Of a stretch of 33,381 nucleotides of DNA, positions 9,029-14,397 are shown in pieces. Within the stretch, counting starts at the first letter, position 1, and every line of letters begins with the position of its first letter. The DNA comes from Kribbia dieselivorans NBRC 106261 (GTDB lineage: Bacteria; Actinomycetota; Actinomycetes; Actinomycetales; Dermatophilaceae), in NCBI RefSeq assembly GCF_001552435.1, contig NZ_BCRE01000082.1, forward strand, positions 1 to 33,381, written 5' to 3'. The notes beneath the pieces were generated by a model that made no database searches, was not told the origin of the DNA, and saw only the letters and a list, made by a program, of their open reading frames with translations. The position numbers were made by a program, and so were the translations under genes.

Positions 9029-9102
9029 TGTGGAGAATCGTGTGGACAACGGGATCTTTGCAGGTCAGGGGCCTGTAGCAACGGCTATGGGTCTGTGGAT
9101 GA
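9029..9102. promoter_or_regulatory. DnaA boxes in the dnaA leader
   Basis: Reverse-strand boxes: TGTGGAGAA at 9029-9037 (one mismatch), TGTGGACAA at 9041-9049 (perfect match to actinobacterial TTGTCCACA), and TGTGGATGA at 9094-9102 (two mismatches). They lie between the candidate promoter and the start codon, where DnaA binding would repress its own gene. Confidence 0.7.
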
Positions 9103-9120: not shown

Positions 9121-10680
9121 GTGACGACCATGGGCGGCACGGACGAGGACTTCGCCCAGATCTGGCACAACATCCTCGATACCCTCGATGCCGACGGCGT
9201 CCCGGTCACCGAGCGTGCGTTCCTCCAGTTGGGCAAGCTCGTCGGGTTGCTCGACGGCACCGCGGTGATCGCCGTGCCCAATGACTTCTCCAAGCAGTTC
9301 GTCGAGCACCGCCTGCGCCAACACGTCACCTCGGCCCTCTCGGCCCAACTCGGCAGTGAGGTCCGCCTGGCGGTCACCGTCGACTCCTCGCTGGCCGAGG
9401 GCGGTGACACCGACACCCAGCTGGCCTTCGACGACGATCCGGCCATCGATCCGCCGTCGGCGAGCGTGGCGACACCCCCAACCCCGACCGTGCTGCCCAC
9501 CGCGCCGCCAAACGAGGCGACCGGGCGCCCCGTCGACCCCGCCGCCCCGGCACCGATGAGCGCCGATCCCCTCCCGGCACCGTCGGGCGCCGGCGACTCC
9601 GGCCCGCACCGACACCGCGGCGCCGAGCAGCCCGAGCGCATCGAAGCGACCCGCCTGAACCCGAAGTACAACTTCGACACCTTCGTCATCGGCGCGAGCA
9701 ACCGCTTCGCCCATGCCGCCACCGTCGCGGTCGCCGAGGCGCCCGCCAAGGCGTACAACCCCCTGTTCATCTATGGCGGCTCGGGGCTGGGCAAGACCCA
9801 CCTGCTGCACGCGATCGGGCACTACGCGCGCAACCTCTACCCCCATCTGCGAGTGCGCTACGTCAACTCCGAAGAGTTCACCAACGACTTCATCAACTCG
9901 ATCCGCGACGACAAGTCCGCCAACTTCCAGGCGCGCTACCGTGAGGTCGACGTCCTGCTCATCGACGACATCCAGTTCCTCTCGGGCAAGATGCAGACGC
10001 AGGAGGAGTTCTTCCACACCTTCAACACCCTGCACAACGCCAACAAGCAGGTCGTCATCACCAGCGACGTGCCGCCCAAGCTGCTCTCCGGCTTCGAGGA
10101 GCGGATGCGGTCGCGGTTCGAGTGGGGTCTGCTCACCGACGTCCAGCCGCCCGACCTCGAGACGCGCATCGCGATCCTGCGCAAGAAGGCCATCCAGGAG
10201 CGGCTGCAGGTGCCCGCGGACGTCAACGAGTTCATCGCCTCGCGCATCGCGACGAACATCCGCGAACTCGAGGGCGCGCTGATCCGAGTCACCGCGTTCG
10301 CCAGTCTCAACCGGCAACCGGTCGACCTGGCGCTGGCGCAGATCGTGCTCAAGGACCTCATGCCCAATGAGTCCGCCAGCCAGATCACCAGCGCGCTCAT
10401 CATGGGTCAGACGGCCACGTATTTCGGCCTGACCATCGAGGATCTGCAGGGGTCGAGTCGCTCCCGCGTGCTTGTGACCGCACGGCAGATCGCGATGTAC
10501 CTGTGCCGCGAGCTGACCGATCTGTCCCTACCGAAGATCGGTCAGCAGTTCGGCGGCCGCGACCACACCACCGTCATGCACGCCGACCGCAAGATCCGCG
10601 GGCTGATGAGCGAGCGTCGCGCGATCTACAACCAGGTGACGGAGCTGACCAACCGCATCAAGCAGCAGGCCGCAAACTGA
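9121..10680 (+). CDS. dnaA: Chromosomal replication initiator protein DnaA
   Basis: AAA+ ATPase of 519 residues that binds DnaA boxes at oriC and melts the origin. Domain I is at about residues 4-90 (FAQIWHNIL to [10 protein letters not shown]). Domain II is a Pro/Ala-rich linker to about 175. Domain III begins with [13 protein letters not shown] and carries Walker [10 protein letters not shown] at 219-227 and Walker B LLIDDIQF at 279-286. Domain IV has the signature [14 protein letters not shown] around residue 481, which reads the box. I use the GTG at 9121 because GGAAAGGG lies 7 nt upstream. The 3' end overlaps the convergent epimerase gene by 23 nt. Confidence 0.98.
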
Positions 10681-11614
10681 CCTCCGGTGCCACCACGGCG
10701 ATCGCGGAGCGCAGCGTCTGCTCCCACGGCGTGGGCGCGAGGTCGAATCTCGCTTGGGCCGCGGTCGAGTCGATGACGAACGGAGTCTCGAACTGGTGCG
10801 CCGTCTCGCGCAGTGCCCACACCGTCGGCGCCACCAGCCCCATGGCCTGACGCGCCACCGCCGGCAGCACGATGAGTCGGGCCGGGGCCGTGCCCGCCAG
10901 TGCGGCAACGTCGTCGGCCAGCTGCCGCAGCGACCGCGGGGCAGCGGTGGGCACGTGCCACAGGCGGCCCCAGTCGTCGTCGCGCCCCTGGGTGATCACC
11001 GCGGCCGCCAATCGACCCAGGTCGGTCATGTCGGTCCAGCTGTGGGGCGCGTCGGCCCGCCCGCCGGGGAACATCGCGCGCCGGCCCTGGGCGACCGCCT
11101 TGACGACCAAGGTGTTGATGATGGCGGAATCGCCGTTCTCGCCGGTGTAGTCGCTCGCCCGCAACTCGGTCGCACGGTAGTGCCCGGCTGTGTGGTCGGC
11201 CAGCAGATCGGCCCACATCCGGGCGCGGACCTGCCCCTTGGCGCCGTTCGGGTGCTCGGGCGTGGTCTCGGTCATCGGCGCGGTCACCGGCCCATAGGGG
11301 TAGAGATTGCCGACGCTGATGACGTCTACTCCAGTGGCCCGAGCGGCGCTCCGGATCGCCGTGGCCATGGGTGGCCAGTCACGCTGCCACCGGTAGTACT
11401 GGGGAGGGTTGAGCGCATTGACGATGGTCGTCATGCCGGCGGCCGCGGCCGTGAGGGCGGCGGTGTCCGTGACGTCCAGGGCCAGGCGCTGCGCTCCGTC
11501 GAGGCCTCGGCGCCCGCTGCGGGAGGCGATGACGACCTCCTCGCCGGCCGCCTGCAGGTGCTCGGCGATGCTCCGGCCAGCCGATCCGGCCCCGAGGATC
11601 AGGTGTTTGCTCAT
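10658..11614 (-). CDS. NAD(P)-dependent epimerase/dehydratase-like protein (atypical SDR)
   Basis: Predicted cytoplasmic oxidoreductase of 318 residues. The N-terminus [20 protein letters not shown] carries the Rossmann GxGxxG at residues 8-13, followed by a conserved ALDVTD that would contact the cofactor. The middle has [12 protein letters not shown], reminiscent of the nucleotide-sugar epimerase family, but no clear YxxxK catalytic pair, so it is best called an atypical SDR of unknown substrate. I take the ATG at 11614 because GAGAGG lies 7 nt upstream; another ATG lies two codons earlier and the frame is open to 11704. Its 3' end runs 23 nt into dnaA. It is divergent from a TetR gene, with operator-like palindromes between them, so it is probably the regulated target. 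Confidence 0.85.
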
Positions 11615-11695
11615 GTTCATGCCTCTCACTGGTGGACTCCGCGGTGCCTCTCCCGGGCGTGCTGTGGTGTCGTGTGGTGTGCCGGAACCGCCCCG

Positions 11696-11778
11696 TGTGA
11701 ACACTGTTCACAGCCTCCAGTGAACAGTGTTCACAGCTCTGCTGTCAACCGGTTTCGGGAATCGCAGAACAGTGTTCA
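11696..11778. promoter_or_regulatory. Three-site operator between epimerase and TetR genes
   Basis: Three copies of the interrupted palindrome TGAACA-N-TGTTCA. Site 1 is 11696-11712 (17 bp, TGTGAACA-C-TGTTCACA). Site 2 is 11720-11734 (15 bp). Site 3 is 11767-11777 (11 bp core, weaker). Centres are 23 and 45 bp apart, about two and four helical turns. The adjacent TetR-family regulator is the natural candidate to bind them. Confidence 0.85.
11719..11748 (-). promoter_or_regulatory. Candidate epimerase promoter covered by operator site 2
   Basis: On the minus strand a perfect TTGACA (-35, 11748 to 11743) and TTCACT (-10-like, 11724 to 11719) are 18 bases apart. Operator site 2 covers most of the -10 and part of the spacer, and site 1 lies just downstream, so repressor binding would block initiation. 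Confidence 0.55.
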
Positions 11779-11799
11779 CTCCTGTGTCAGACTGGCCGG

Positions 11800-12543
11800 A
11801 TGCCGAGCTCCGTTCGCGATGACCTGATCGAGGTGGCGCACCGACACCTGGCCCAACACGGCGCCACCGGCCTGTCGTTGCGCGCGATCGCCCGTGACCT
11901 CGGGGTCGTGCCCTCGGCCCTGTACCGGCACGTCTCCGGGCGTGACCAGTTGCTCACCCTGCTCATCGTCGACGCGTACACCGACCTGGCCGAGACCGTG
12001 CTGGCCGGGGAACGGGCGTGCGCGCGCGACGACCACGCCGGTCGGTGGACGGCGATCGCCGACGGCATGCGGCAGTGGGCCATCACCCACCCCCATCGGT
12101 GGGGCCTGCTGTACGGCACGCCCGTGGCCGGGTACGACGCTCCGGCGTCGGAGACGACACCCCCCGGAACCGCCGTGCTGCAACTGCTGGCCCGACTCGC
12201 GGCCGACGTGGCGCAGGCGCGCGCAGCCTCAACGGATGACCGTGCCACCGCCGATGTCGACAGGGACACCGACCAGGACACCCACCGCCCGGCCGACCCC
12301 CAGTTGCCCGTCCTCGACCCGTCCGGTGGTCTGTTCTCCCAGGCGATGCTCGAGGAGTTCGTGCCCGACGCGCCGGCCGACCACATCGGAGCACTCGAGG
12401 TCGCCGACTGCCTCGTCCTGTGGTCCCTGCTCATCGGCTCGATCAGCAATGAGATCTTCGGGCAGTTCGGCCCCGACCTCACTCGCCCCGAGGACTTCCA
12501 CGCCCATGTCGTACGTCGCGGAGCACAACTCCTGGGCGTGTGA
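11800..12543 (+). CDS. TetR/AcrR-family transcriptional regulator (WHG-type C-terminal domain)
   Basis: One-component repressor of 247 residues. The N-terminal helix-turn-helix is at about residues 24-46 (GLSLRAIARDLGVVPSALYRHVSG), with the YRHV-type recognition helix. The C-terminal ligand domain includes WAITHPHRWGLLYGTPVAGY, a signature of the WHG (TetR_C_33-like) subgroup. A loop rich in Asp/Thr at about 145-167 looks like an insertion. No clear ribosome-binding site precedes the ATG, so it may be leaderless or weakly translated. It is divergent from the epimerase gene and most likely controls it and itself through the three palindromes in between. The ligand is unknown. Confidence 0.92.
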   Translation: MPSSVRDDLIEVAHRHLAQHGATGLSLRAIARDLGVVPSALYRHVSGRDQLLTLLIVDAYTDLAETVLAGERACARDDHAGRWTAIADGMRQWAITHPHRWGLLYGTPVAGYDAPASETTPPGTAVLQLLARLAADVAQARAASTDDRATADVDRDTDQDTHRPADPQLPVLDPSGGLFSQAMLEEFVPDAPADHIGALEVADCLVLWSLLIGSISNEIFGQFGPDLTRPEDFHAHVVRRGAQLLGV

Positions 12544-12551
12544 AACGGAAG

Positions 12552-13126
12552 TTCTCCACGGGTTGATCCACAGAATGTGGGTGAACCAACCCCCGTTCGA
12601 CATCTTCGGTCACCCCACGGCCATCTTCACGCAACCGAATCGTGACCGAATCCCGTTCTGCGGGGAAACCAGGGGCATCCGTTTGCATGATCGACCCGTT
12701 GTCCACAGATCCACAGGTTGTGGACAACACTGTGGAACCGCCATCTGCTGCGCCTGCGAGGTTCGCCACCCACACGGCATCCACACCGCCGCCTTGCAAC
12801 GGCAATCCCCCCTTCCCCCAATGTCCACGATGTGGCCGCCTGGCGGGCCAGATCCTCGCGCCCTGTGGACGTCCCCCGAGCGGCAGTGGGTTGTCATTCC
12901 CATCCCGTGGGGAAACCACCGGTCCTCGGTGGACGGGCTGTGGATGACGAATGACCACACACAACCGACAGTCGTCATCCACACCGTCGTCCACCCTGGT
13001 CTCCACACCCGCCGCATCACCGTTGACCTGCGTGATCCCCACTTCTCCACAGTGTCCACACCGCCTATGACCACGATGAATGACATCAAGGATCCATTGA
13101 GCCCCGAGGACGAGGGATGTGGACGG
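12552..13126. other. oriC: Chromosomal replication origin (oriC)
   Basis: The 720-bp gene-free region 12544-13263 just before dnaN holds about 15 DnaA-box-like sequences. The best are TTGTCCACA at 12699-12707 and its reverse at 12719-12727. One- or two-mismatch sites include 12821-12829, 12864-12872, 12939-12947, 12975-12983, 12999-13007, 13043-13051, 13052-13060 and 13118-13126, on both strands. Box density and position match actinobacterial origins, which normally lie between dnaA and dnaN. The stretch 13065-13100 is relatively AT-richer and could be the unwinding element, but it is not strikingly AT-rich. Confidence 0.92.
12699..12727. promoter_or_regulatory. Inverted pair of perfect DnaA boxes
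   Basis: TTGTCCACA (12699-12707), an 11-base spacer with a further partial box (GATCCACA), then TGTGGACAA (12719-12727). These are the only two consensus boxes in oriC and they face each other, so they are probably the high-affinity anchor. Confidence 0.85.
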
Positions 13127-13263
13127 CCAATTCTCCCAACCACTGCCGGTGGCATTAGGGTGAGAGCCCCACGGCTGCAGACCGGGACGATCCGATCTGC
13201 CGTCCCCCGCACAGCACCTCGCCGGCACCCCAGCGGTCGGCGGATCCATGAAGGCAGGTCATC

Positions 13264-14397
13264 GTGAAGTTCCGCGTCGAGCGAGACATCCTCACCGAAG
13301 CCGTCACCTGGGTGGCCCGCGGTCTGCCGGCACGCCCGCCGGTGCCGGTGCTCGCCGGGGTGCTCATCGACGCCCGCGACACCGGGGAGATCACCCTCTC
13401 GGCCTTCGACTACGAGACCTCGGCCCGCACCACCGTCCCGGCGGAGGTCGCCGAGGCCGGCACCGTGCTCGTCCTGGGTCGACTGCTGGCCGATATCGCC
13501 CGCAACCTGCCCAACAAGCCGATCGACATCGAGACCGATGGCAACAAGGTCGAGGTCACCTGTGGTTCGGTGCATTACTCGCTCCTGCAGATGCCGGTCG
13601 CGGAGTACCCGACGCTGCCGAGCTCGCCGACCCCGACCGGCACCGTCGAGGGCACGGTCTTCACCGAGGCGGTGGGCCAGGTCGCCATCGCGGCCGACCG
13701 CGGCGACACCCTGCCGATCCTCACCGGCGTGCGCGTCGAGGTCGACGGCGACACCATGACGCTGCTGGCCACCGACCGGTACCGCCTCGCCATGCGCGAA
13801 CTGACCTGGCAGCCGACGGCCAGCGACCAGAACGCCGTCGCGCTCATCCCGGCCCGCACGCTGTCGGAGACCGCGAAGACCCTCGGCGCCGTCGCCAACG
13901 TCGACATCGCGCTCGGTGACGCCGCCGGCGGGGACGGTCTGGTCGGGTTCGACGCGGGCCAGCGGCACATGACCTCCCGTCTCCTCGACGGTGACTACCC
14001 CAAGGTCGCCAAGATCTTCCCGAGCTCCTCCGAGACGGAGGCCGTCGTCGGCACCCACGAACTCGTCGAGGCGGTCAAGCGCATGGCACTCGTGGCCGAG
14101 CGCAACACCCCGGTGCGGCTGCGCTTCTCCGAGGGCCAGGTCGGCATCGAGGCCGGTACCGGCGACGATGCCCAGGCCTCCGAGGTCATCGAGGCCACCG
14201 TGCACGGCCCCGACCTCGAGATCGCCTTCAACCCGGCCTACCTCCTCGACGGTCTGGGCGCCCTGGGCCGCCAGTTCGCGCGCCTGGCGTTCACCGCTCC
14301 GCTCAAGCCGGCGCTCATCACCGGTCAGGACACCATCGAGGAGCCGGCCGACACCTCGTACCGCTACGTGCTGCAGCCGGTGCGCCTGGCCGGCTGA
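13264..14397 (+). CDS. dnaN: DNA polymerase III sliding clamp (beta subunit)
   Basis: Ring-shaped processivity factor of 377 residues that holds the polymerase and other enzymes on DNA. It begins MKFRVERDILTEAVTWVARGLPARPPVPVLAGVL, and the three-domain clamp pattern is seen through ATDRYRLAMRELTW in the middle and the C-terminal YLLDGL, ITGQD and YRYVLQPVRL. The end of the last block is the usual clamp tail that forms part of the peptide pocket. The GTG at 13264 has AAGGCAGG upstream. The gene lies immediately downstream of oriC. Its stop is followed after three bases by the ATG of a secreted protein gene. Confidence 0.98.
   Translation: MKFRVERDILTEAVTWVARGLPARPPVPVLAGVLIDARDTGEITLSAFDYETSARTTVPAEVAEAGTVLVLGRLLADIARNLPNKPIDIETDGNKVEVTCGSVHYSLLQMPVAEYPTLPSSPTPTGTVEGTVFTEAVGQVAIAADRGDTLPILTGVRVEVDGDTMTLLATDRYRLAMRELTWQPTASDQNAVALIPARTLSETAKTLGAVANVDIALGDAAGGDGLVGFDAGQRHMTSRLLDGDYPKVAKIFPSSSETEAVVGTHELVEAVKRMALVAERNTPVRLRFSEGQVGIEAGTGDDAQASEVIEATVHGPDLEIAFNPAYLLDGLGALGRQFARLAFTAPLKPALITGQDTIEEPADTSYRYVLQPVRLAG

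Follow-up and report, generated by a model that had tools for sequence, protein, structure and literature searches.

A TetR/SDR gene pair between dnaA and oriC of Kribbia dieselivorans NBRC 106261 and in other Dermatophilaceae

Gene content between dnaA and dnaN

The window analysed here, a 33,381-nucleotide (nt) stretch of the Kribbia dieselivorans NBRC 106261 genome (Dermatophilaceae; RefSeq assembly GCF_001552435.1, contig NZ_BCRE01000082.1, forward strand), carries a divergent pair of genes between dnaA and the replication origin (oriC), one for a TetR-family repressor (tetR) and one for an enzyme of the short-chain dehydrogenase/reductase (SDR) type. The pair is ordinary in kind, and its position recurs in some members of the family, being neither unique nor universal. 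The genes and the origin are arranged as follows:

9121–10680, plus strand: dnaA, left flank (Pfam Bac_DnaA and Bac_DnaA_C; TIGR00362 DnaA, 521.9 bits)
10658–11614, minus strand: SDR gene ('NAD-dependent epimerase/dehydratase', extended Rossmann-fold type, 318 aa; PF01370, 31.9 bits)
11800–12543, plus strand: TetR-family repressor gene (TetR_N and TetR_C_33, both over Pfam cut-offs)
12544–13263, no strand: oriC interval of 720 bp with DnaA boxes, its length inside the range of insert-free relatives
13264–14397, plus strand: dnaN, right flank

These coordinates bear out the geometry of the original prediction, in which the order dnaA–oriC–dnaN was said to be broken by a divergent tetR/SDR pair, dnaA to be separated from the origin by about 1.9 kb and the enzyme gene to run head-on into dnaA with a 23-nt overlap. 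The insert, measured from the dnaA stop codon to the start of the oriC interval, is 1,863 bp long and is occupied by the two genes. The convergent overlap comprises the last 23 nt of dnaA and arises because the SDR gene uses a stop codon (at 10658) inside the dnaA 3' end, which reaches 10680. The SDR start at 11614 was set by homology, a 348-aa open reading frame (ORF) up to 11704 being simply the longest reading. Exact DnaA boxes occur in the oriC interval at 12699–12707 and 12719–12727, with one-mismatch sites at 13043 and 13052. Across 21 loci this interval spans 586–752 bp where an insert is present (10 loci) and 633–854 bp where there is none (11 loci), DnaA-box variants are present in each, and the box layout is common to the loci, most clearly within genus g33; judged by length and boxes, the oriC interval looks intact despite the insert.

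Operators, regulator and enzyme

Between the two divergent genes lie three palindromes and the positions where the promoters may be placed:

11697–11711, no strand: operator palindrome GTGAACACTGTTCAC, perfect, an extra SDR-proximal copy
11720–11734, no strand: operator palindrome GTGAACAGTGTTCAC, perfect, taken as site A, its start 45 nt from the start of site B
11765–11779, no strand: operator site B, CAGAACAGTGTTCAC, TetR-proximal, imperfect (2 mismatches to the pattern)
11743–11748, minus strand: putative SDR-promoter -35 element TTGACA, for which the -10 position (11725–11720) would fall inside a palindrome
11788–11793, plus strand: putative tetR -10 element CAGACT, placed by position, 6 nt 5' of the ATG, which would give a leaderless mRNA

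Three matching palindromes had been proposed for the shared promoter region and three are present, but the third is imperfect. At up to 3 mismatches the pattern has 3 matches in the window against 0.58 expected, a count reached in 1 of 100 shuffles. The exact operator consensus has no match in the genome outside the tetR/SDR promoter region, and the regulator therefore looks local; a whole-genome scan at up to 2 mismatches gave 6 places, 3 of them in the tetR/SDR region, and 1 for a reversed control pattern. RWGARCANTGYTCWY at up to 2 mismatches has at least two sites in 104 of the 109 intergenic regions compared (86 of 91 without duplicates), counts that measure conservation and are not an independent test, as the motif was derived from the scored regions themselves. 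Two or more operator sites were carried by 0.02% of mononucleotide shuffles. The five regions short of two sites belong to loci L134 and L144 (none) and L135, L166 and L176 (one each). Relatives have GTGAGCANTGCTCAC or GAGAGCANTGCTCTC beside the SDR gene and AAGAGCANTGCTC beside tetR, the sites starting mostly 48–54 nt apart (34–35 nt in Nonomuraea, Actinomadura and some others). Compared with the relatives, the window operators have A for G and T for C in both arms, and the operators are kept over distant families with such paired arm changes (GAGCA/TGCTC to GAACA/TGTTC).

A consensus scan for a sigma-70 promoter at tetR/SDR found none. On the minus strand, the TTGACA at 11748–11743 is followed by a 17-nt spacer and then by a poor -10 hexamer, GTTCAC, within the 11720 palindrome; the earlier claim that one palindrome covers the epimerase promoter is plausible, but this hexamer and the result of the scan leave it at that. 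If tetR is leaderless, site B would lie at about -35 to -21 of the gene, and the layout would fit repression of both promoters. In 60 of the 86 distinct two-site regions a TTGAC-, TTGAT- or TTGCT-like sequence on the SDR strand adjoins site B. A count of the tetR -10 motif across relatives (8 of 91) was judged too crude and was set aside.

The regulator belongs to the TetR family by its domains (TetR_N PF00440, 32.8 bits, cut-off 24; TetR_C_33 PF13305, 61.3 bits, cut-off 26.8) and by the conserved palindromic operators in the promoter region that precedes its gene. Among solved structures, Rv1816 of M. tuberculosis (PDB 5d1r; phmmer E 9.1e-41) is closest to it in sequence, the best alignment running over residues 6–158 with a second short stretch at 201–228, and profile A2 extends the homology to the whole length (positions 4–229 of 236, E 2.9e-71). 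The profile also matches SCO4313 (PDB 2oi8; E 2e-40). Both proteins are homologous to the window TetR over nearly the whole profile and have TetR_N plus a C-terminal ligand domain in common with it. Rv1816 is described, in the excerpted text of a review (PMC6463170), as binding lauric and palmitic acid, with palmitate lowering its DNA binding, and as binding several mmpL regions and kasA, whereas the exact consensus of the window TetR stands at one place in the genome. Because of the fatty-acid report for Rv1816, the ligand of the window TetR is taken, by analogy, to be small and probably hydrophobic or fatty-acid-like.

The SDR keeps the fold of its class but probably not the classical chemistry. 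Its AlphaFold2 model (mean predicted local distance difference test score, pLDDT, 95) has extended SDRs as the best solved folds (6kv9, MoeE5: Z 30.0, root-mean-square deviation 2.5 over 285 residues; GalE-type chains similar), and the N-terminal Gly-rich NAD(P) Rossmann motif is present, with G8, G10 and G13 invariant. In the HMMER alignment to 6kv9 and 2pk3, however, the Tyr and Lys of the catalytic YxxxK are K126 and R130, invariant in alignments A1 (29 sequences) and A3 (33), and the catalytic Ser position is N103, nearly invariant and neither Ser nor Thr. The window SDR therefore has its whole fold and the Rossmann motif in common with extended SDRs such as GalE, MoeE5 (6kv9) and 2pk3, but among the matches listed it is 12–19% identical to them, and N103/K126/R130 replace the triad. 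With the catalytic residues replaced, 'epimerase' is therefore a fold label only: of the identity first proposed, the extended GalE-like SDR fold stands, but Asn, Lys and Arg occupy the places of the catalytic Ser, Tyr and Lys. In this the enzyme may be akin to atypical SDR subgroups that have no known function (CDD 'SDR_a3').

The pair within and outside the dnaA–oriC slot

The family census sampled 149 genomes, 144 of which have dnaA and dnaN together on a single contig and the same strand (three had no dnaN match, and G045 and G065 no dnaA on the same contig). The dnaA–dnaN gap spans 485–1,089 bp in 113 of the 144, while the TetR/SDR pair fills it, in the same orientation, in 20 genomes from 9 genera, the window included; carriers include Terrabacter, Humibacillus, Intrasporangium, Terracoccus and Pedococcus. 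The proposed insertion is thus extra relative to the family default, but it is not private to this genome, and the comparison of dnaA–dnaN intervals did not find the pair across the whole family either; both a private insertion and a family-wide conserved position are ruled out by the census.

Other occupants of the gap were found in a smaller number of genomes. Three (G032, G007 and G086) have a homologous TetR gene with a divergent gene for an F420H2-dependent reductase (PF04075), and seven have other genes (TetR plus a major facilitator superfamily [MFS] transporter; an MFS transporter alone, in two; a Sap-like protein; polyhydroxyalkanoate genes, in two; a response regulator). The gap of G013 measures 1,382 bp and holds no ORF past the filter. 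In G003 (locus L117, 2113–4299) a different TetR (TetR_C_11) stands with the divergent MFS transporter, and in two g28 genomes (L122, 2517–6266; L123, 3047–9736) the gap contains polyhydroxyalkanoate synthase and hydrolase-type genes on the strand opposite dnaN, with an AMP-binding enzyme in one of the two.

In the slot copies tetR and the SDR gene are divergent throughout (20/20), with 111–278 nt between their starts. The junction with dnaA is more variable: overlap with the SDR gene is absent in 14 of the 20 slot genomes, the two genes are 47–321 nt apart in 14 of the 15 copies of the Terrabacter group, and the insert begins directly at the dnaA stop codon in genera g1, g33 (SDR copies) and g42. 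DnaA-box variants were absent from 8 of the 10 slot inserts checked and present once in each of the other 2, both from g42. The pairs with an F420H2-dependent quinone reductase (PF04075), whether in the slot (G032, G007, G086) or nearby (genus g2), have the same TetR kind and operator motif, and an enzyme family unrelated to the SDR stands in its place. In g2 a TetR match lies 3.0–4.6 kb past the dnaN 3' end, on the opposite strand, in 7 of 9 genomes, and it is paired with a PF04075 gene in 3 of the 3 genomes read. In G105, of this genus (L126, 1783–3110), the TetR/F420-reductase pair, with the same operator kind, stands beside a DciA gene about 4 kb past the dnaN 3' end.

Outside the slot, the pair is present at 17 further family loci that were fetched, and is divergent in all 17. 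The copy in G104 (L144, 2569–3877) is broken, with two in-frame stops in the SDR gene and a shortened TetR. A scan of one genome per species returned 406 SDR relatives, the best 80 of which were kept as named loci; among these best 80 of 406, a divergent TetR lies within 600 bp in 66, and dnaA and dnaN are present in the fetched flank (up to 6 kb) in 15 and absent from it in 65, the 15 being contigs already counted among the 20 slot genomes and not additional cases. At the level of the order, the SDR was found at E ≤ 1e-40 in 41 of 297 genomes. TetR is on the opposite strand in 25 of the 28 order-level loci examined (window's included), and dnaA lies within about 1.5 kb at the window's locus only among these 28, outside of which fall the known slot loci L069 and L074. 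By homology, the TetR/SDR pair is found across the Actinomycetota. It resembles divergent TetR regulator-target pairs generally in its short shared promoter region, its palindromes and its one enzyme target, the dnaA–oriC position being its peculiarity. The earlier suggestion of a self-contained regulated pair is supported by the divergence of tetR and SDR within the slot, elsewhere in the family and in 66 of the 80 loci, by the conservation of the operators and by the restriction of the exact consensus to this one region of the genome. Literature searches of open-licence PubMed Central articles for a TetR between dnaA and dnaN, for a TetR with a divergent epimerase and for the operator core brought up nothing on this pair among the articles listed, and those for SCO4313 and 'SDR_a3' were empty.

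The remaining features of the origin region lie to either side of the insert. The genes 3' of dnaN are those for a BNR-repeat protein, a 6-phosphogluconate dehydrogenase-like protein and a RecF/RecN/SMC-domain protein; the BNR-repeat gene (PF15892; 14401–16146), between dnaN and the gnd-like gene, is a further gene within the origin cluster. Upstream of dnaA, at 9029–9049 on the minus strand, are two DnaA-box-like sites, TTCTCCACA and the exact TTGTCCACA, which would fit dnaA autoregulation.

Interpretation of the pair and of its position

The favoured reading, at a probability of roughly 0.7, is that of an autoregulated repressor-enzyme pair of a kind widespread in Actinomycetota, a detoxification or redox unit that occupies the dnaA–oriC slot in a few lineages. 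The divergent neighbour of a TetR gene is usually the target of that TetR. A TetR dimer would bind two to three of the palindromes between the genes, site B covering the -35 region of tetR and the A sites the -10 and start region of the SDR gene, and would repress tetR together with the gene of one redox enzyme, its only likely targets in this genome. It would be released by a small ligand that is probably hydrophobic or akin to a fatty acid, and the SDR would then act with NAD(P) on that ligand or a relative of it, by a mechanism other than the classical Tyr-Lys one. The pair would stand outside replication control and would lie between the dnaA stop and oriC because genes have become inserted at this slot in several lineages of the Dermatophilaceae. 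Several observations weigh against this reading. The slot is used repeatedly by the same TetR kind with two enzyme types, and the place could matter; the window TetR is on a long branch in its gene tree, and its ligand may have changed; the operator layout in the window is atypical (an extra site and an imperfect site B); and the window's sole SDR-strand TTGACA, at 11748–11743, stands apart from site B.

That the palindromes are due to chance or serve another regulator, the two genes being mere neighbours, is very improbable: no promoter passed the consensus scan and one of the 100 window shuffles equalled the loose-match count, but the operators are conserved over distant families with matching changes in both arms, and the exact consensus is unique in the genome. 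A functional location, in which the module is coupled to dnaA or to the activity of the origin through antisense reading from the SDR gene into dnaA or through origin-proximal dosage, is distinctly unlikely. The recurrent use of the slot (20 + 3 of 144 genomes) would suit it, as would the TetR/F420-reductase pair 3.0–4.6 kb past dnaN in g2 (TetR in 7/9, partner checked in 3) and the failure to find a terminator-like site where the convergent dnaA and SDR genes meet. Against this stand the 17 family loci with the pair away from the origin and the 65 of 80 named loci whose flank lacks dnaA and dnaN, the 14 of 20 slot genomes in which dnaA is not overlapped, the scarcity of DnaA-box variants within the inserts and the occupation of the slot by unrelated genes. 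The proposed effect on dnaA has the geometry as its sole support here.

It is quite possible, though short of probable, that the slot pair is old in the family, through one arrival or through exchange of the slot segment between genera by homologous recombination in dnaA/oriC, with loss in most lineages, and is not a recent insertion in the window genome. The species tree was built from dnaA and dnaN of 96 genomes by a quick method with long-branch warnings, and the gene trees include 25 of the 80 named loci (alignment A3 includes 32); the TetR tree omits L144 (broken copy), and the SDR tree omits L135 (internal stop). On the species tree the slot pair is scattered, with a minimum of 5 changes (7 when the F420 version is included), and in the genera nearest to the window's (g49, g37, g38 and g12) no sampled genome has the pair in the slot, which speaks against an old pair. 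The slot copies in the SDR tree form a Terrabacter-group clade of 15 and a g33+g42 clade of 4, with the window alone beside non-slot copies (Shimodaira–Hasegawa-like approximate likelihood ratio test, SH-aLRT, 91, not starred). The TetR tree disagrees on the window's placement, putting it with the g2 TetRs (support 82, long branch), and has the g8 TetRs of the F420 version among non-slot copies (support 98).

Approximately unbiased (AU) tests, on the other hand, leave one clade standing, which favours an old pair. A single clade of all oriC-slot copies was not rejected (SDR p 0.318, TetR p 0.146), nor was a clade of the window with g33 and g42 (p 0.29, 0.192). The single clade is unrejected in all five tests giving p (0.318, 0.48, 0.146, 0.29, 0.192); in a sixth case the 20 TetR rows already lie on one side of a branch (support 64), making an AU test needless. 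Independent arrivals, which the trees suggest, were dropped as a firm claim on account of these tests. The window, g33 and g42 copies (L098, L099, L105 and L106) also share one and the same stop codon, located within the 3' end of dnaA. This favours common descent or exchange, but it could arise from conserved dnaA sequence, as any SDR in that frame beside the conserved dnaA tail would meet the same stop, and the Terrabacter-group junction differs.

A more ambitious proposal, doubtful at present, is that the dnaA–oriC gap of the Dermatophilaceae is a recurrent docking site for one TetR/operator circuit with interchangeable redox enzymes (a triad-less SDR or an F420-dependent reductase), reached independently more than once and kept for early-replicated high dosage or for the convergent overlap with dnaA. 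Two labels that would mislead annotation are corrected: the enzyme is without the classical epimerase residues, and the insertion at the origin is not private to this genome. The operator motif and the apparently single-target regulon could serve as an actinobacterial inducible switch once the ligand is known, and the dnaA–oriC slot is a natural case for why some genes settle beside an origin.

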